Shown: one piece after another, positions 2,354-39,664 of the stretch | How the letters are laid out: each line of letters opens with the position of its first letter | How positions within the stretch are numbered: position 1 is the first letter of the stretch | From: a virus | DNA length: 39,768 bases | IMG/VR virus record: IMGVR_UViG_3300046011_005882 | Location: 1-39,768 of that record | Direction: 5' to 3' (one strand) | Program-made: the position numbers and the translations under genes | The notes under the pieces: model-generated | Told to the model about the DNA's origin: nothing | Seen by the model: the letters and a program-made list of their open reading frames with translations, nothing else | Databases searched by the model: none

Positions 2354-3286
2354 TTACGTTGCCACGGCAGTTGTGGGTGTCAATGGGGAAGATTCGGGGA
2401 GCCTGTCCGACTTGGACTGGTTTTCGTATCCCCAAAGCGGCTGAAGGTTTGTGAAGTGCGTAGCCTTTCGCTGCTGCTCTGGGTCGGACAGCTTGAAGCT
2501 TGAAAGTGGAATGATGTGATCTATGTGCCAGCCGCGATAGCCGTAGTTGCTCCAGCTCATCCCGGGTTTGAACTGCTTTTCCAGGTGGGCCTTTAACTCT
2601 GGAATCGTGCAGCCAAGCATTGCCAGCGTCTTGGAGTGCTTGCGGACTCCTTGGGAGCGAATCGCATCCCCTAGTCGGCTTCGTATTGTGCAGGCTATCT
2701 TAAACTCAATGCAGTTTCGCCGTTTTTCCTGCATGTATTTTGCCCTCCTTTTTCTGATCTCCGGAACAATATCAGCCGGCAGTTCTGAAACCGTTTTCCT
2801 TTTTCTCTTCAGGCCGGCCAGCGCCATCGCCTTGTCCCTTATCCTCCCAGCGACTAGTCGCATCTCCTTGGAAATCTGTTTCTTGATGTGGTCAGGGATA
2901 GGCGGGTAAACGCAGAGCACCCAGTTCTTGTGGTGTTCCTTTTGGGCTATGCGGCGCCCCTTCTGCCTCCGGAGCCTTTCGTCGCGGGATATTGCACGGC
3001 TCGGCTTCTTGATGAGATTGCTCCCGGCAGACTTAGCCCTGTTCCTTCCGGCCGCGTGGGCCTTCTCAAGCCTGTCGGCCTCAACCTTTACCCGGAGCGC
3101 ATACTTCATCGCGAGTATGCAACCGGCGGCGTAGTAGATGAGGCCGTCTGGGGTTCGGAATTCGTCGGCCCCAATCACATCGCCATCCTCCTCAACCCGT
3201 CGCTTCACGTATTCCCAGTTTTTTTGAGACAGCATTAAGGCATACGCTTCTGGGTTTTCCTTGAGCTTTTCGTAGTCAGATTTCAT
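2354..3286 (-). CDS. HNH homing-type endonuclease
   Basis: The 310-residue protein is very basic through its middle (KRKRKTVSELPADIVPEIRK and flanking Lys/Arg-rich stretches). Near the C-terminus, at about 245-300, lies the HNH core: GWHIDHIIPLSSF (HxxD-H type), then HFTNLQPLWGYENQSKSD, where Asn and the final residues complete the betabeta-alpha-metal site. This is the usual layout of free-standing phage HNH endonucleases. The segment LGCTIPELKAHLEKQFKPGM just before it is typical of the same family. The gene sits alone between two strong terminators downstream of the capsid gene, which suggests a self-contained inserted cassette. Target specificity cannot be read from the sequence. Confidence 0.8.
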   Translation of the reverse strand: MKSDYEKLKENPEAYALMLSQKNWEYVKRRVEEDGDVIGADEFRTPDGLIYYAAGCILAMKYALRVKVEADRLEKAHAAGRNRAKSAGSNLIKKPSRAISRDERLRRQKGRRIAQKEHHKNWVLCVYPPIPDHIKKQISKEMRLVAGRIRDKAMALAGLKRKRKTVSELPADIVPEIRKRRAKYMQEKRRNCIEFKIACTIRSRLGDAIRSQGVRKHSKTLAMLGCTIPELKAHLEKQFKPGMSWSNYGYRGWHIDHIIPLSSFKLSDPEQQRKATHFTNLQPLWGYENQSKSDRLPESSPLTPTTAVAT

Positions 3287-13374: not shown

Positions 13375-13748
13375 TCACTCCAGCTTCCAAATCCGGATTA
13401 TGGTTTCTTCGGGCTCCGGGCTTTTGATTTTTGTCTGGAAGACTGCGCCTTCGGAGAAAGCCTCTTTGTCGTCAAGTATTGCTCCAGCGTAAACGCAAGC
13501 GTCTTCAAGAGCTTTGGTTCCGCCGTAAAGGTTTGCCCTTGGGTCGATGAGTCTTCGGCGGCGGCTTTCAATGCTGATAAAACAGCGCGCTGCGTGGCCT
13601 CTCTCTCCTTCTTTCGCTGCCACCTGTTCTGTGCAAGTAGGACGTTCAGGCTCGGAACTTTCCTGTCCACACGCAAGACTATCCACGGGTCCCCCTCCGG
13701 GACTTTTGGCAGTGGTGGGTGAACCCATTTTTCGTTTTTGGTAGTCAT
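13375..13748 (-). CDS. RusA-type Holliday junction resolvase, split between two frames
   Basis: RusA cuts Holliday junctions and branched DNA in phage replication. The N-terminal part reads in one frame from ATG 13748: VLRVDRKVPSLNVLLAQNRW then RKKEREATQRAVLSALKAAA, matching the RusA N-terminal pattern (PSLN, then a basic helix). The C-terminal part reads in the -1 frame: RRRRLIDPRANLYGGTKALE then YAGAILDDKE, matching the conserved RusA end with its catalytic Asp residues (DP.ANL and LDD). The two halves meet near 13540-13580, close to a GCCGCCGCC run. Neither frame alone is a whole RusA. A sequencing indel, a real inactivating mutation or a programmed -1 shift could explain this. The C-terminal frame is open from ATG 13785. 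Confidence 0.65.
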
Positions 13749-13769
13749 CGAACCAGTTCTTAATTTGCT

Positions 13770-14090
13770 TCACGGCGTATTCCATTTCCCCAACTCACAC
13801 AGCAGCCCCAGCTCCCGGGCTTCCTTGGGATTCTCGCCGATCCAGTTGTGACATGGGCGGCAGACGGATGCCCAATGCTCACTCATGCAGAGCAGTCGGC
13901 CAATCCGTCCTCGCTTGTGGTGGATGTCGGTCGCTTTCTTCTTGCACCTTTCGCAGCGCGGCCTGGCGTGCAAGAACTGCTTCCGCAGCGTAGCGTATTC
14001 GCGAAGACGAGCATGGCGGACCTTGCTGATCGACGGGATGCGCGGACGGGGCTTGCGGGCTAGGCATTTGGGGTTCTGGTTGATTGCCAT
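13770..14090 (-). CDS. HNH endonuclease, small phage type
   Basis: The ATG at 14090 (MAINQNPKCLARKPRPRIPS) overlaps the MazG stop by one base. At 106 residues it is a compact HNH protein: RCERCKKKATDIHHKRGR gives CxxC and the DIHH metal site, and EHWASVCRPCHNWIGENPKE gives the second CxxC and the final H-N. Small HNH proteins of this kind occur beside terminase and replication genes, where some stimulate DNA packaging nicking; others are homing enzymes. All four zinc cysteines and the catalytic His pair are present, so it should be active. The gene before is a MazG-like hydrolase; the gene after is RusA. Confidence 0.85.
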   Translation of the reverse strand: MAINQNPKCLARKPRPRIPSISKVRHARLREYATLRKQFLHARPRCERCKKKATDIHHKRGRIGRLLCMSEHWASVCRPCHNWIGENPKEARELGLLCELGKWNTP

Positions 14091-14620
14091 CAGATGATGC
14101 CGGTGAAGTCGGGAGCCTTGTAGGTGGGCGGCTTGACCACCTTGTTCGTGTAGGCGCCCCGGACAACCCAACGCCCGTTCACCTTGTCAACGATGTGGCC
14201 GCCACTGTCAACCCCGCCCGGATACGTTTTCAGCGCATCCTCCTCGGTCCAGAGCTTCGTCTCGTTGGAGTCGCAGATGCGCTCAAGGATTTGGGCGAGG
14301 CTGAATCCCCGCTGGCCGCAGATCAGCTCCAACGTAAACCAAGCCTTGTTCACATGGGAAGGCCCACCTGCGTTCTCAAGGCCGACCAACGTGAAGGCGA
14401 TGTCGCCGATGGCGTCCACCTCGTCCTTGAGCGTCCCGTAGAGCTGGGCCTCCAGTAGCTCATCCCACTCCTCTCGGACGTATTGGAACTGCTGGGTGGG
14501 GAATTTCGGGTCTTGCAAGGGCTGTCCCATCGCCAGTTGCCAGTCGCGGATGCGGGCCTTCAGGGAGTCGTAGGTGACGGCAGCTAGGGCTGCCTTGTAG
14601 TCGGGGGAATCTTCGCTCAT
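14090..14620 (-). CDS. MazG-like nucleotide pyrophosphohydrolase
   Basis: The 176-residue protein has an all-alpha MazG-type core at about residues 40-95: QYVREEWDELLEAQLYG gives the ExxE metal-binding pair and LKDEVDAIGDIAFTLVG gives the matching ExxD pair. MazG-family enzymes hydrolyse NTPs to NMPs plus pyrophosphate; phage versions may clean the nucleotide pool or lower alarmone levels. The C-terminal 70 residues (EDALKTYPGGVDSGGHIV then WVVRGAYTNKVVKP) are common in phage relatives and may be a lid or a separate small domain. The start overlaps the methyltransferase stop by ATGA and the stop overlaps the HNH start. Substrate is not predictable here. Confidence 0.75.
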   Translation of the reverse strand: MSEDSPDYKAALAAVTYDSLKARIRDWQLAMGQPLQDPKFPTQQFQYVREEWDELLEAQLYGTLKDEVDAIGDIAFTLVGLENAGGPSHVNKAWFTLELICGQRGFSLAQILERICDSNETKLWTEEDALKTYPGGVDSGGHIVDKVNGRWVVRGAYTNKVVKPPTYKAPDFTGII

Positions 14621-15894
14621 TGAATCGTATTCTGTTGGTTCATCTGCTCAATTTTCATGAAGGCCGTCACGAACTCGGCTGCGACTTGCGGGACGATGGC
14701 GTTGCCTGCTCCCTTAAGGAGCGCAGGGCGGATGCTCCCGCGTCGTGCCAGCTTGTAGGAAAGCCCATCAGCCAGAGGGAAAAGTGCGGGTTCAGTTGGT
14801 ATCCTGCGGTGCTTTCCGTCGCGGCAGAGGAGCCATCGGGAGTCAGACCAGAAGGAGTGAACGCAGTCGCTTGCATCGACAGGTCGGTTATCGTTGCCGT
14901 ATCGCGCCCCATGTTGAGCTTCCGCTGCATGTGCGCCTCCGCAGTGCCACCGGGCTGATTGGCCGTCGGCGTAGCCCATCCAGCCATGCACACCTGCTGG
15001 CTCAGCGGAATCCCCGTGTCCTGTGGTCTCGGTGGCAATGATCCCCTCGCTCCGTCCGTTGCTGTCGGGGAGACCCATCCCGCTGGAAGTATCTTCGACT
15101 CCGCGTAACTCTCCCGGTTTCCATTGCCGGCCGTCATCGCCTGAACAAGGTCCTGCTCCGTCACCATTGAGCTTGTTGGAGATGGCCATCCCGCTAAGCT
15201 CGCCTGCGCCGTCAGCGTGTCCGCCACTCCCCTGCCGTGCCTCATTCCTGATGATTCCGAATCCTCGGCTCTTGGCGTCGCCCATCCAGCCAACTGCGCC
15301 ACCCTCGGAAGCTGATCCAGCCGCGATCTGGTTGATCCGTCCGGATTCGTGCCCGTCTCGCTCATCCCTGCTGTGTCCTTCCAGTCGCGGGCGGAGGCTG
15401 TTGGCCACCCAGTAAAGTCTTTGTCGGATGTGCGGCGCCCCGACGCTGTGTGCGCCCAATACGGTCGCCCCGCAGGCGTAACCTTCTGGCTCCAGGTCTG
15501 CCGATACTCCATCGAGCCAACCGTGAGCAATCGCGCTTGCAACCTGCTCCCCAAATACCTGCTGAGGTCGGCACTCGCGGATGAGATTAAAGAAGGCTGG
15601 CCACAGGTGGCGTTCGTCGAGCTGTCCGAGTCCTTTCCCAGCTGCGCTGAAGGGCTGACATGGACAACTTCCGGTCCAAATAGGTCTACTTGAGGGCCAT
15701 TGTGCCAGTTGTAGCGCGAGCGGCCAACCTGCGATTCCGCAGAAGAAATGACATTGGACATAGCTTTTCAGTTCATCCGGTTTGACATCCACGATTGATC
15801 GCTCGTCCACATCGCCCGGCGGGATGAGCCCGCCCTTGATAAGTTGCCTGAGCCAGTTTGCAGCAGATTTGTCGATTTCATTGTAGTAGTTCAT
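14617..15894 (-). CDS. C5 cytosine DNA methyltransferase
   Basis: It transfers methyl from S-adenosylmethionine to cytosine C5 in DNA, most likely to shield phage DNA from host restriction. Motif I is FFCGIAGWPLALQLA (about 50-64), motif IV SCPCQPFSAAGKG with the catalytic Cys (about 76-88), motif VI FGEQVAS (EQV in place of ENV), motif VIII PHIRQRLYWVA (about 154-164), and the C-terminal motif X is KGAGNAIVPQVAAEFVTAF. Between residues 165 and 360 the target-recognition region is Gly/Asp/Ser-rich with weak conservation. No cognate restriction enzyme is visible, so it is an orphan. A second long frame is nested inside it (14667-15761). The stop overlaps the MazG start. Confidence 0.9.
   Translation of the reverse strand: MNYYNEIDKSAANWLRQLIKGGLIPPGDVDERSIVDVKPDELKSYVQCHFFCGIAGWPLALQLAQWPSSRPIWTGSCPCQPFSAAGKGLGQLDERHLWPAFFNLIRECRPQQVFGEQVASAIAHGWLDGVSADLEPEGYACGATVLGAHSVGAPHIRQRLYWVANSLRPRLEGHSRDERDGHESGRINQIAAGSASEGGAVGWMGDAKSRGFGIIRNEARQGSGGHADGAGELSGMAISNKLNGDGAGPCSGDDGRQWKPGELRGVEDTSSGMGLPDSNGRSEGIIATETTGHGDSAEPAGVHGWMGYADGQSARWHCGGAHAAEAQHGARYGNDNRPVDASDCVHSFWSDSRWLLCRDGKHRRIPTEPALFPLADGLSYKLARRGSIRPALLKGAGNAIVPQVAAEFVTAFMKIEQMNQQNTIQ
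14667..15761 (-). CDS. Nested +1-frame protein in the methyltransferase gene, GWPTP-repeat family
   Basis: A 364-codon frame with its own ATG at 15761 lies wholly inside the methyltransferase gene. Its text is not random: GPQVDLFGPEVVHVSPS, SSASADLSRYLGSRLQARLL, YRQTWSQKVTPAGRPYWAHT, then repeated units GWPTASARDWKD, GWATPRAEDS, GWPSPTSS, GWVSPTATDG and GWATPTANQPGG, and a LNPHFSLWLMGFPTSW end. From memory this series (tryptophan-pro repeats, then LNP..SRWLMGYP.EW) is a family widespread in phages and often labelled methyltransferase-like, although it has no methyltransferase motif. Both frames therefore look coding over about 1.1 kb. Its function is unknown. Confidence 0.6.
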   Translation of the reverse strand: MSNVISSAESQVGRSRYNWHNGPQVDLFGPEVVHVSPSAQLGKDSDSSTNATCGQPSLISSASADLSRYLGSRLQARLLTVGSMEYRQTWSQKVTPAGRPYWAHTASGRRTSDKDFTGWPTASARDWKDTAGMSETGTNPDGSTRSRLDQLPRVAQLAGWATPRAEDSESSGMRHGRGVADTLTAQASLAGWPSPTSSMVTEQDLVQAMTAGNGNRESYAESKILPAGWVSPTATDGARGSLPPRPQDTGIPLSQQVCMAGWATPTANQPGGTAEAHMQRKLNMGRDTATITDLSMQATAFTPSGLTPDGSSAATESTAGYQLNPHFSLWLMGFPTSWHDAGASALRSLREQATPSSRKSQPSS

Positions 15895-28549: not shown

Positions 28550-28924
28550 ATGAGCCAGCCAACCTTCCCCTCCATAGACCAATCCCCGGCGGGCCTTGAC
28601 TGGGGGTTCGGCCCGTCCTCGATGAAGCTGTTCCGCATCCGGTTCAACCAATGGGCCAAGCGGACTGGCAATGATGCTCCCTGCGGCTTCCGGGCTGGCC
28701 CGAATAAGGCCACCGCCTTGCGCCGGAAACGGCCCGCCAAGCGATTGGGAGACGCTCCGGGACTCTCGGTAGCGGAGGCTGCCAAATTGGCTGGTATGCT
28801 GCCGGCCACATTGAGCAAGGATGTGGGGAGGGGGAAGATCAAGGCCACCCGGCTGGGCCATCGGACAGTCCGGATTGATGAGGAGGAGTTGACGAGATAC
28901 CTGAAATCGAAAGGAACCAAGTGA
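28550..28924 (+). CDS. Excisionase-like helix-turn-helix protein, 124 aa
   Basis: The last 60 residues hold a MerR/excisionase-type winged HTH: GLSVAEAAKLAGMLPATLSK, DVGRGKIKATRLGHRTVRID and EEELTRYLKSK. The first 60 are basic (FRIRFNQWAKRTGNDAPCGF, ATALRRKRPAKRLGD) and could contact DNA. It directly precedes and overlaps the integrase gene (GTGA), the usual place for a recombination directionality factor. A plain regulator is the alternative. Confidence 0.7.
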   Translation: MSQPTFPSIDQSPAGLDWGFGPSSMKLFRIRFNQWAKRTGNDAPCGFRAGPNKATALRRKRPAKRLGDAPGLSVAEAAKLAGMLPATLSKDVGRGKIKATRLGHRTVRIDEEELTRYLKSKGTK

Positions 28925-29952
28925 CCATGGACAACCCCATCCAACCCCTCGCCATCGAAGGCCGGTGGGAGGTGGTGATGCCCTCGCAGGAGCCCGCCAA
29001 GCTCAAGCGGGGAGTCTACGAGCTGCCCCCGGCCCACGTCGTCATCGGCTGGTATCTGGCCGAGAAGAAGGGGGCTTGGACGGAATCCACCATCAGCCGC
29101 ACCATCGCAGCCCTCAAGATTTTCGAGCGGTGGCTGAATGGGCGGCAGTTGAGCCGGCAGACGATGGTGGACTACCGGGATTACCTCGCAGCCTACAGGA
29201 ACGGTGGAGTCACGCAGATCGAATGGTCCATCTGCCGGTCATTCATTGGCTGGCTGGTGAGGAACCGGTGGGTGGAGCCGAACGTCATCGAGTCCATCTC
29301 CCCGCCGCCCCCGAAGCGCCCACCTTCGAGGCCCCCCATCCGCGACCACCACTACCAGAAGCTCATGAAAACCAAGGGGGTCCATCCGATGGTCCGCTGG
29401 CTGGTCACGGTCATGTGGCACACGGGCATGGCCTTGGTGGATGCCCAGGAGCTGCGGTGGGACGAGGTGGACCTTGAGCGGATGGTGATTTCCAAGGTGA
29501 GACGGAAGACCAAGGCGTTCACCCGCCCCTGCATCATCCCCGTGGACCCGTCGGGAGTTCTTGCCTCGGAGCTTATCCGCTTGAACGACAAGAGCCTGCT
29601 TGATCAGGAAAGGGTCAGGAAGTTCCATCCCGAATACAACCGCAGCGAATATGTGGAGCCCGACGCGGCCCGAATGCGGGAGCACTCCCGATGGGGCAAT
29701 GCTTGGACGACCGCCCGGGAACTCGCGGGAATCAGTCCCGAATACTCCCCCCATTGCTTCCGGAGGGGGTTTGTGACCAAGCTGGTCGAGGGCGGGGTGA
29801 ACCCGTTGATTGGGTGCGCCATCACCGGCCACAGCAACCCCTCCACTTTCCTGGCCTACGCCACGATGGACCCGGAACGGGTTCGCGAGGAGATGGATAG
29901 GGCACTCCAGGAATCGGCAATGAAGGCGATGAGGAAAGGAAACAACCAATGA
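28921..29952 (+). CDS. int: Tyrosine recombinase (phage integrase) lacking the first catalytic arginine
   Basis: It integrates or excises the phage genome at att sites. Starts with GTG at 28921 (or ATG 28927). The N-terminal SAM-like arm domain spans about 30-130 (TIAALKIFERWLNGRQLSRQ) and the catalytic domain 135-343. Box II is clear: SPHCFRRGF (His278, Arg281), ITGHSNPST (His304) and the nucleophile Tyr313 in FLAYATMD. A Lys-rich beta2-beta3 turn is at SKVRRKTKAF. The usual box I motif TGLRxxE is TGMALVDAQELRW here, with Ala at the arginine position (about 171). This is known in IntDOT-type recombinases. The gene overlaps the excisionase-like gene. Confidence 0.85.
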   Translation: MTMDNPIQPLAIEGRWEVVMPSQEPAKLKRGVYELPPAHVVIGWYLAEKKGAWTESTISRTIAALKIFERWLNGRQLSRQTMVDYRDYLAAYRNGGVTQIEWSICRSFIGWLVRNRWVEPNVIESISPPPPKRPPSRPPIRDHHYQKLMKTKGVHPMVRWLVTVMWHTGMALVDAQELRWDEVDLERMVISKVRRKTKAFTRPCIIPVDPSGVLASELIRLNDKSLLDQERVRKFHPEYNRSEYVEPDAARMREHSRWGNAWTTARELAGISPEYSPHCFRRGFVTKLVEGGVNPLIGCAITGHSNPSTFLAYATMDPERVREEMDRALQESAMKAMRKGNNQ

Positions 29953-32252: not shown

Positions 32253-32459
32253 ATGATCAACACATCCACAAACCAGCCATACCTCACCGTCCGCGACCTC
32301 ATCGAGCGCCTAAGCCAGCCCCACATTGACCCGTTGGCGAAGGTCTGCTGGCTCAACAACAAGGCCGAGCCGCTGTTCCCGGGCGACATAAAGCAGGTCC
32401 ACCTCGCCACCCCCGGCGGGAACAGCCAAATCCGGTGCGCCCTCTTCCTCATCGACTAA
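32253..32459 (+). CDS. Hypothetical protein, 68 aa, coupled to the clamp gene
   Basis: It starts MINTSTNQPYLTVRDLIERL, a short alpha/beta domain with KVCWLNNKAEPLFPGDIKQV. Its stop TAA overlaps the next ATG by one base. The 30-base spacer upstream is A-rich and holds no clear ribosome binding site. Function unknown. Confidence 0.55.
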   Translation: MINTSTNQPYLTVRDLIERLSQPHIDPLAKVCWLNNKAEPLFPGDIKQVHLATPGGNSQIRCALFLID

Positions 32460-33505
32460 TGAAGACCACCATCAACTCCCGGCTGCTGGAGAAGGGGCTC
32501 AGCTTCGTCAGCCGCATCATCACCCGCCAATCCATCGGGGCCATCCAGTTGGTCGATGGGGTAGTTATGGCAACGTCCGCGAAGGGCGAGGCTTGGTTCA
32601 AGGTCGGGGACTTCCTTGGCTCAACCTGCATCAAACAGGCCCCGCTTGAATCAGCCCTCGCGGCCGGCGGGGAGGAGATCGTCATCGACGCAGGCGAATC
32701 CTCCGCCCTCATCAAGAGCGGCTCCCTGAAGATCAAGGCTCCCACGTTGGACTCCGCGGAGCTGGTCAAATGGGCGGACGTTAAGAACTCCCCAATCTCA
32801 CTCCCCCATATGTTCGTGGAGGCGGTTGGGTTTGGTGCCCTGATGAGCCACCCGGATGAGAACAGCGACTTCGACCACATCAACATCCAGTCCCACAATG
32901 GCAATTTGGTGGCGTTCGGGACGGACCGGATGAACTTCTCCGTCCAATTGACGGAGCTTCCTTGGGGTCGGGAAGACCTCTTCATCCCAACCTCCGTCCT
33001 CCCGTTGCTCAAGGCGATGGAGGGCGATGTGGTGGTGGACTCGGATGGGGACAAGCTGCGGGTCACCTCACCTGATTGCGGCTTCACCATCCCCCTGTTC
33101 CACGACCGCCGCTCGATGAGCTACTCGAAGCTCCTTGCGCTCAAGCAGCCCATTGCCGGGATTGCCAACCGCGAGGAACTCCTTGGCCTTCTTCGGGCCT
33201 ACATGGGCATCCACGCTCCCTCCGGGAAGGGTATGAGCCTGAGCTGCGATGTGGAGCTGAAGGTCATGGGTGAGGCCCTGCATCTACTCGGGGAAGGCGA
33301 GAGCTTCGACGGGTCCGCCACGCTCAAGGAGTCAGTGGACGGGGCGACCATCATGGCCAATGCTATCCCGCTCATTGCCGCCCTCGCTGCGTTCGATTGT
33401 GACGAGGTGGCGGTAGGATTCAGTGATCCAAAATCCCCCATCTCGATTGAGGCGGCTGTCCCGGATGGGCGGCTGGCGATGATGGCACCAATGAGGAGAC
33501 AGTAG
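32459..33505 (+). CDS. DNA polymerase sliding clamp, DnaN-like
   Basis: The ATG at 32459 follows the upstream stop. At 348 residues the protein has DnaN-like text in order: an N-terminal helix after a short strand (LLEKGLSFVSRIITRQSIGA), repeated beta-alpha blocks (IDAGESSALIKSGSLKIKAP, HINIQSHNGNLVAFGTDRMN), and the signature C-terminus VGFSDPKSPISIEAAVPDGR then LAMMAPMRRQ, which matches the clamp end that binds partners. A clamp encircles DNA and tethers the polymerase. Phage-encoded clamps are uncommon. The next gene starts directly after the stop with GTG. Confidence 0.75.
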   Translation: MKTTINSRLLEKGLSFVSRIITRQSIGAIQLVDGVVMATSAKGEAWFKVGDFLGSTCIKQAPLESALAAGGEEIVIDAGESSALIKSGSLKIKAPTLDSAELVKWADVKNSPISLPHMFVEAVGFGALMSHPDENSDFDHINIQSHNGNLVAFGTDRMNFSVQLTELPWGREDLFIPTSVLPLLKAMEGDVVVDSDGDKLRVTSPDCGFTIPLFHDRRSMSYSKLLALKQPIAGIANREELLGLLRAYMGIHAPSGKGMSLSCDVELKVMGEALHLLGEGESFDGSATLKESVDGATIMANAIPLIAALAAFDCDEVAVGFSDPKSPISIEAAVPDGRLAMMAPMRRQ

Positions 33506-39016: not shown

Positions 39017-39664
39017 ATGGAATCAGCAAACTCAGACTACGCCGTCTTCGACATCGAAACCTCCCCGCTCCCCGAGGAGCAACTGGCCGCCTCCATGCCG
39101 GAGTTCAAGGCCGCCGCGAACCTCAAGGACCCCGAGAAGATCAAGGCATCCATCGAGGAGAAGAAGGAAGCCTACATCCGCGACGCAGCCCTATCCCCAC
39201 TGACCGGCCGCATCCTGGCAGTCGGGGTTCGCAAGCCCACCGGGGACCTCCTGATTGCCCACGGGGAAGATGAGGCGGACATCCTGAAGAAGGTGGTTAC
39301 CCAGCTCCGGCTATACATCCAGCAGCAGATTCCGATTGCCGGGTTCAACATCAAGTTCGACCTTCAATTCATACGGTTCAGGTGCGCCGTCCACTCGATC
39401 CACTGCCAGAATCTGATAAGCAGATGGAAGGGGAGGGCATTCTGGAATGAAAACTTCATCGACTTGATGGACGAGGTGACAATGGGTAGGGAGAAGTCTG
39501 GAAACGGACTCGACGCAGTATGCAAGGCTTTGGGCATAAAGGGTAAAACTGGAAGCGGGGCATATTTTGCCCAGCTTTACAAAGATGCCCCAGAGTCCGC
39601 GCTCGACTATCTCCGGAATGACATCAGGGCGACAGCATCTGTTTACGAAAGACTGATGACTTGA
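39017..39664 (+). CDS. 3'-5' exonuclease, DnaQ-like (RNase H fold)
   Basis: The protein starts MESANSDYAVFDIETSPLPE. It has exonuclease motif I (VFDIETSP, Asp12 and Glu14), motif II (IAGFNIKFDLQFIRF, with N..FD, about 110-124) and motif III (YLRNDIRATASVYERL, with Y...D, near 195-205). These acidic residues bind two metals. At 215 residues it is one domain without a polymerase, so it is either a proofreading subunit, a partner of a split DNA polymerase, or a nuclease of replication. It follows the small barrel protein; a polymerase gene may lie beyond the window. Confidence 0.85.
   Translation: MESANSDYAVFDIETSPLPEEQLAASMPEFKAAANLKDPEKIKASIEEKKEAYIRDAALSPLTGRILAVGVRKPTGDLLIAHGEDEADILKKVVTQLRLYIQQQIPIAGFNIKFDLQFIRFRCAVHSIHCQNLISRWKGRAFWNENFIDLMDEVTMGREKSGNGLDAVCKALGIKGKTGSGAYFAQLYKDAPESALDYLRNDIRATASVYERLMT

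Follow-up and report, generated by a model that had tools for sequence, protein, structure and literature searches.

Two overlapping reading frames in a phage genome probably encode one two-subunit C5 cytosine methyltransferase

The multispecific C5 methyltransferases of the Bacillus phages SPR, phi3T and rho11 are single chains with tandem recognition modules of about 40 residues. A nested C5 methyltransferase composed of two polypeptides is already known in M.EcoHK31I from E. coli, in which the small ORF lies within the large one in another frame. Motifs I-VIII and X of M.EcoHK31I are on one polypeptide and motif IX is on the other, and its predicted recognition domain is on the large chain (PMC3404938). 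The small subunit of M.AquI carries motifs IX and X, and the small domain of M.HhaI, like that of M.HaeIII, contains the variable region together with motif IX (PMC3404938).

The window analysed here is a stretch of 39,768 nucleotides from a virus (positions 1 to 39,768 of the IMG/VR record IMGVR_UViG_3300046011_005882). Reading of its ORFs revealed two overlapping frames, both on the minus strand, within one stretch of about 1.3 kb. A preliminary description of this DNA had reported, at 14667-15761 and with the strand unstated, a C5 methyltransferase gene and inside it a 364-codon +1 frame with its own ATG; both frames are present, and the nested ORF (beta) is offset from the outer ORF (alpha) by 133 nt, which corresponds to the +1 frame. 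The best explanation, to which we assign a probability of about 0.86, is that the two overlapping frames specify the subunits of a single C5 cytosine methyltransferase, which would be a variant of the M.EcoHK31I type. The features of the locus, in positions of the window, are the following.

14617 to 15894, minus strand: outer ORF (alpha), ATG start, 425 aa; predicted large domain of a C5 cytosine methyltransferase, with motifs I, IV, VI, VIII and X but no IX
14667 to 15761, minus strand: nested ORF (beta), ATG start, 364 aa; predicted recognition modules and motif-IX-like segment
15724 to 15753, minus strand: alpha motif I, CHFFCGIAGW
15634 to 15672, minus strand: alpha motif IV with the catalytic Pro-Cys-Gln, GSCPCQPFSAAGK
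15541 to 15558, minus strand: alpha motif VI, GEQV
15403 to 15429, minus strand: alpha motif VIII, IRQRLYWVA
14857 to 15402, minus strand: alpha linker from motif VIII to the conserved pre-X segment; poorly conserved, opposite the beta modules
14671 to 14712, minus strand: alpha motif X, GAGNAIVPQVAAEF
15768 to 15788, minus strand: remnant of the canonical beta start of the family, ATG TCA AAC CGG ATG AAC TGA; six-codon frame ATGTCAAACCGGATGAACTGA
15408 to 15761, minus strand: beta N-terminal region, aa 1-118, ...GSxxYxxTWxxxxTPxGRxxxxxxASxRRTS...; overlaps alpha motifs I-VIII
15285 to 15407, minus strand: beta module 1, WPTASARDWKDTAGM...AQLAG
15189 to 15284, minus strand: beta module 2, WATPRAEDSESSG...
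15078 to 15188, minus strand: beta module 3, WPSPTSSMVTEQD...
14979 to 15077, minus strand: beta module 4, WVSPTATDGARGS...
14860 to 14978 (end approximate), minus strand: beta module 5, WATPTANQPGG...
14748 to 14795, minus strand: beta motif-IX equivalent, LNPHFSLWLMGFPTSW; in-frame counterpart in the single-chain actinophage enzyme L266, followed there by motif X on one chain

Alpha matches the Pfam family DNA_methylase (PF00145, 6e-15) and phrog_363 (1e-76). The motifs that had been named beforehand (I, IV, VI, VIII and X) were all located in it, in the order of C5 methyltransferases, with PCQ in motif IV. PCQ and GEQV are near-invariant among 118 alpha sequences, motif VI being GEQV and not ENV. 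In a PDB profile search alpha matches M.HhaI (6e-19) over residues 73-172 only, and the match ends at motif VIII. The earlier motif reading, correct in what it listed, had missed that motif IX is absent from the outer ORF and is supplied by the nested one; by sequence comparison, none was located in alpha and the motif was found only in beta. Alpha does not combine a recognition domain and motif IX on the same chain: its stretch from motif VIII to the pre-X segment is little conserved and shows the constraint of the other frame, and the linker in the module region is glycine-rich, with 62% polar or Gly residues. On the basis of the M.EcoHK31I split, and of the comparison with the small domains of M.HhaI and M.HaeIII, alpha is predicted to serve as the large domain, with beta as the small domain that recognises DNA.

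Compared by description, the locus resembles M.EcoHK31I in having motifs I-VIII and X on alpha and IX on beta. The gene for the small chain is likewise nested in another frame, here in +1 in 453 of the 454 loci with both profiles in an enlarged set that includes near-duplicate contigs; the exception, L265, is a single-chain fusion. In contrast, recognition is assigned to the large chain of M.EcoHK31I, whereas here the modules are in the beta frame and form shuffled arrays; moreover, M.EcoHK31I is from E. coli, whereas the setting of alpha and beta is a phage or prophage. M.AquI shares the split chain and a recognition region partly on the second subunit, but it has motifs IX and X on the small subunit, while X is on alpha here. 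Tandem modules are shared with the SPR, phi3T and rho11 enzymes, which are single chains and not separate overlapping frames. In the PHROG collection alpha corresponds to phrog_363 and beta to phrog_1008 and phrog_31772, all labelled 'DNA methyltransferase', with the overlap and the division of one enzyme unrecorded.

The preliminary description had left two options, a large nested gene or a frame kept open just by methyltransferase codon bias. The latter is favoured by the fact that no family model in Pfam or NCBIfam covers the nested protein and by a GC content of about 60%, which lowers stop density. Against it, a null model was built by shuffling synonymous codons of the outer ORF, using distinct sequences only (213 distinct homologous loci). 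In the window alone the nested frame has 0 stops against 4.6 expected, and 0 of 200 permutations left it open. Throughout the 213 loci, 3 stops were observed against 700.7 expected, and the frame is open in 210 loci against about 9.5 expected, while the same null on the other four frames, used as controls, gave observed/expected ratios of 1.00-1.11. Stop codons appearing freely in the nested frame of related phages, which had been proposed as evidence against a gene, were thus not found. In the reverse test, with beta-synonymous permutation of the module array, 2 alpha-frame stops were observed against 886.4 expected. In loci that had not been used to train it, a beta profile scored about 285 bits, compared with about 90 bits in permuted copies of those loci. 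Both frames are under selection: neither the openness nor the constraint of one can be accounted for by the other, as in an overprinted pair.

Constraint was also measured by codon position. In a +1 overlap, alpha codon position 3 coincides with beta position 2, and alpha position 1 with the beta wobble position. The main set comprised 71 epsilon15-like sequences (2400 pairs, not independent of each other). Among these, the ratio of alpha position 3 to position 1 rates is 6.1 in both alpha-only flanks, before and after the overlap, 2.8 across the overlap with motifs I-VIII, 0.49 in the variable middle, which is the periodicity of the nested frame, and 1.07 over the motif-IX stretch. The third-position substitution rate of alpha is 0.156 in the motif I-VIII overlap versus 0.355 and 0.378 in the single-frame flanks, a suppression of alpha synonymous sites of about 2.3-fold. 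Amino-acid identity in the variable middle is 0.45 for alpha and 0.66 for beta. A K1-like set changes in the same direction, more weakly, and the window's own relatives reach a middle ratio of only 0.97, these sets being saturated and their modules misaligned. Since the broad set and the window's relatives are too saturated or misaligned in the middle, the flip was measured within epsilon15-like phages and within module clusters. In all 15 module clusters measured, the beta wobble position is the fastest site and beta identity is well above alpha identity, and the excess of beta over alpha identity holds overall also with pairs picked by alpha identity. Because the periodicity flips and beta identity exceeds alpha identity, the beta frame is constrained in the variable middle and alpha is merely kept open there.

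Constraint equal to that expected from the methyltransferase alone, the second finding that had been named as damaging to a nested gene, was therefore not obtained, given the profile scores, the suppressed third positions and the nested-frame periodicity. The nested frame also occurs in the epsilon15 and N15 loci, and Shine-Dalgarno sites with an ATG precede it in 203 loci against 29 expected. The codon-bias artefact, which retains next to no probability, was rejected by the stop, constraint and start-site tests, and the nested frame is a real gene. The first of the two options thus stands on evolutionary evidence, from which translation of beta is predicted.

The only relevant database matches of beta are to phrog_1008 (5e-26) and phrog_31772 (3e-20), both labelled 'DNA methyltransferase', and no catalytic methyltransferase motifs were found in it. 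This agrees with the earlier remark that the second protein is often called methyltransferase-like without any motif of that family. Searches of beta gave no relevant Pfam or NCBIfam match, nothing from PADLOC and no PDB profile match at E up to 10. The Trp-Pro-Thr-Pro-type repeats noted before correspond to five modules with Trp-x-Thr/Ser-Pro/Ala starts (at 15407, 15284, 15188, 15077 and 14978), and the LNP...LWLMGFP..W ending to LNPHFSLWLMGFPTSW at 14748-14795. The C-terminal consensus of the family is LNPxHSRWLMGxPxEW, and the LNPxxxxWLMGxPxxW segment aligns with the motif-IX position of single-chain relatives. The N-terminal region is a possible alpha-docking part.

A census of the modules, in which 328 of 392 distinct betas could be split, gave 1134 modules. 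There are 1-6 modules per beta, typically 32-40 residues long, with a few longer merged ones. Module 1 of the window is of a type also present in epsilon15, RcMrWorf and Cy-LDV1. Among the clusters represented by five or more loci, 19 of 20 were found at two or more array positions, and clusters often have as many neighbour contexts as loci; single linkage over-merges the largest cluster, and cluster 1 is an N-terminal segment and no module. Beta thus has tandem exchangeable modules like those of multispecific C5 methyltransferases. The modules resemble an exchangeable recognition array, which suggests a role in specificity.

A different role for beta, for example as a counter-restriction or regulatory protein that merely shares the locus, is unlikely. 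Such a role gains some ground from the fact that the proposed function relies on homology to recognition and motif-IX segments, and that no relative is known for the N-terminal region of 118 residues. However, alpha lacks motif IX and has a poorly conserved linker in place of a recognition domain, the same modules and an LxPxFxxWMMG segment occur in frame in single-chain C5 methyltransferases, and no beta without an overlapping alpha was found among the genome-derived loci (bacterial and prophage) fetched with the beta profile.

The single-chain relatives are from actinophages. Hamulus gp68 and prophiGD91-2 gp27 have LLPTP modules and a motif-IX segment homologous to those of beta, but these belong to one continuous frame that also holds motifs I-VIII and X, with part of the beta match kept in +1. 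In gp27, from a Mycobacterium phage, a single frame contains motifs I-VIII, LLPTP modules, LAPAFSEWMMGWPAGWVT and motif X (GNGVVPQQ). Alignment of beta with the LAPAFSEWMMGWPAGW segment of gp27 by hhalign gave E = 9e-7, over 20 columns, and the assignment rests on context. Along gp27 the beta profile match starts in the nested frame (82-195, E = 5e-13) and continues in the alpha frame (202-339, E = 4e-7), and gp27 thus reads as a frame-switch fusion of beta modules to alpha. In the single-chain actinophage methyltransferases L266 (1761-2951) and L265 (1596-3305), a partial beta profile match is still in +1 and marks the frame-switch point. The pairs gp76/gp75 of the Mycobacterium phage Jaykayelowell and gp38/gp39 of the Gordonia phage Camerico have a short overlap, with motifs IX and X on the second gene, and look AquI-like; beta modules match Jaykayelowell gp75 with E = 2.8e-8.

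The natural single chain in L266, which arose through a frame switch within its modules, might suggest that ribosomes slip from the alpha to the beta frame after motif VIII by a programmed frameshift, yielding one fused chain with no independent beta start. This is very improbable, because the beta frame is constrained upstream of such a shift, across alpha motifs I-VIII, and beta has its own Shine-Dalgarno site and ATG ahead of motif I.

An internal start of beta within the proposed two-subunit locus is indicated by several signals. The beta ATG lies exactly 11 codons ahead of alpha QCHFF in 224 of 326 loci, a start-region ATG is present in 270 of the 326 (119.3 expected), and Shine-Dalgarno-like tetramers occur upstream of beta in 203 (28.8 expected). 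The start consensus is GACGAAAGGAGTATTGAAG-ATG-TCA, and the ribosome-binding site is spelled by the codons of alpha DERSIEDV, with the unusual Arg codon AGG and Ser codon AGT. These initiation signals are present in most members of the family, and the canonical start is lost in the window copy. In its lineage the canonical ATG (15788-15786) meets a TGA (15770-15768) after six codons, the present beta ATG at 15761 lies 6 nt after that TGA, and the Shine-Dalgarno site, which reads CGATCAATCGTGG, is lost or degraded. In the genome record, the match to the beta profile runs from 15788 through the TGA. In this lineage beta probably starts at the downstream ATG, with stop-restart initiation as the likeliest route. 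Since the canonical start runs into a stop and the Shine-Dalgarno site is lost, expression of beta is less certain for the window copy than for the family.

The overlapping pair is widely distributed. In ten annotated phage loci (EBPR podovirus 2, Cy-LDV1, epsilon15, N15, K1ind2, PhiXhv-5, Riah, phiKX1, Tunturi_1 and RcMrWorf) the same frame is open in all ten, with the same N- and C-terminal signatures; both frames are annotated in 2 of these records, and one or neither in the rest. All 250 scorable sequences, comprising the window and phage, IMG/VR and bacterial-genome loci, have both ORFs, always in +1; L250, which scored neither profile, corresponds to the window, retrieved as a fragment. 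In an unbiased set of loci fetched by methyltransferase alignment alone, beta is present in 79 of 79. In five of 459 loci at least one of the two profiles was not matched; these comprise two fragments and three distant relatives (L253, L261 and L264) in which beta is below the profile threshold yet visible on reading. Because the nested +1 frame of L261 (1833-2576, Bacteroides phage BF1-TP2) has LLPTP and SILESMMGFVIGHTEL without a beta profile match, the beta family appears wider than the profile shows. The nested +1 form was also found in Paenibacillus, Lacticaseibacillus, human-gut, Synechococcus, Stenotrophomonas, Vibrio and Bacteroides phages. Same-strand overlaps of about 0.8-1.1 kb occur in phages or prophages of Proteobacteria, Firmicutes, Actinobacteria, Cyanobacteria, Bacteroidetes, Planctomycetes and Verrucomicrobia. 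No near match to window DNA 14000-38500 was found among phage records.

Some loci depart from this layout in detail. In Komagataeibacter phage phiKX1 (L008, 1713-3352), the pre-X segment and motif X of alpha are set apart by an insert of well over 100 residues; it begins about at the end of beta, which is thus undisturbed. In two E. coli prophages (L459, 194-1392, and L460, 139-1844), an MT-A70 adenine methyltransferase gene overlaps the alpha start by 4 nt. The RefSeq annotation of both has alpha alone, and in L459 the MT-A70 gene and alpha are marked as pseudogenes. Only alpha is annotated in an intact E. coli prophage locus of RefSeq. A tblastn search of plasmids with epsilon15 beta gave 15 records, most of them annotated as a single DNA cytosine methyltransferase. 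One Paenibacillus record carries a curator remark on the nested gene, 'Not called by any program'. No description of the overlap in phages was found in the open literature, the part of the literature that was searched, and the P. larvae phage paper has no passage on it. By the same literature, the breadth of the phage family, the shuffled recognition modules in the nested frame, the start signals within alpha codons and the fusion intermediates are new.

According to the proposed mechanism, one mRNA would give two polypeptides, beta being made from its own internal start. Alpha would fold as the large domain, its motifs I-VIII supplying the S-adenosylmethionine binding site and the catalytic Pro-Cys-Gln, with a polar linker leading on to motif X. 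Beta would be the small domain, with its N-terminal region, 1-6 exchangeable modules (about 32-40 residues) and motif IX, which would help to organise this domain. The modules would form or carry the target-recognition region, so that the array chooses the site, and alpha and beta would associate into an active methyltransferase. From the sequences we infer that beta is translated, binds alpha and sets specificity through its modules. The enzyme may shield phage DNA from host restriction or alter gene expression, resistance to restriction being the probable benefit to the phage. Co-translation from one segment could plausibly keep the two halves in matched amounts, which would favour retention of the overlap. 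A more far-reaching idea, to which we give even odds, is that nested beta is a combinatorial reader built of cassettes of about 35 codons, each with its own target and shuffled between phages with both frames kept open, from which a frame switch gives rise to single-chain enzymes. If so, one recombination event would change the methylation specificity and leave the catalytic domain untouched.

Elsewhere in the window, matches were found to an integrase (28921-29952, plus strand), a sliding-clamp-like processivity factor (32435-33505, plus strand), a DnaQ-like exonuclease (39017-39664, plus strand) and endonuclease VII (2354-3286, minus strand). Because of these matches, the window appears to be a temperate phage with part of its own replisome. 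A RusA-like resolvase is seemingly split over two overlapping minus-strand frames, 13375-13785, with weak RusA PHROG matches, and 13398-13748, with the RusA N-terminal part recognised by eye; this may be a frameshift, a sequencing error or another overlap.

A long same-strand overlap kept across the phages of many bacterial phyla is unusual, and this one has an evident sense if the two frames are two domains of one enzyme. Beta is often missing from annotation, and databases usually list one gene of the pair. Cloning an annotated 'DNA cytosine methyltransferase' of this family therefore means expressing alpha; wild-type DNA carries beta inside and so may work, whereas codon-optimised synthetic alpha genes would destroy beta and look dead. 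The split enzyme thus bears on how phages alter DNA modification.
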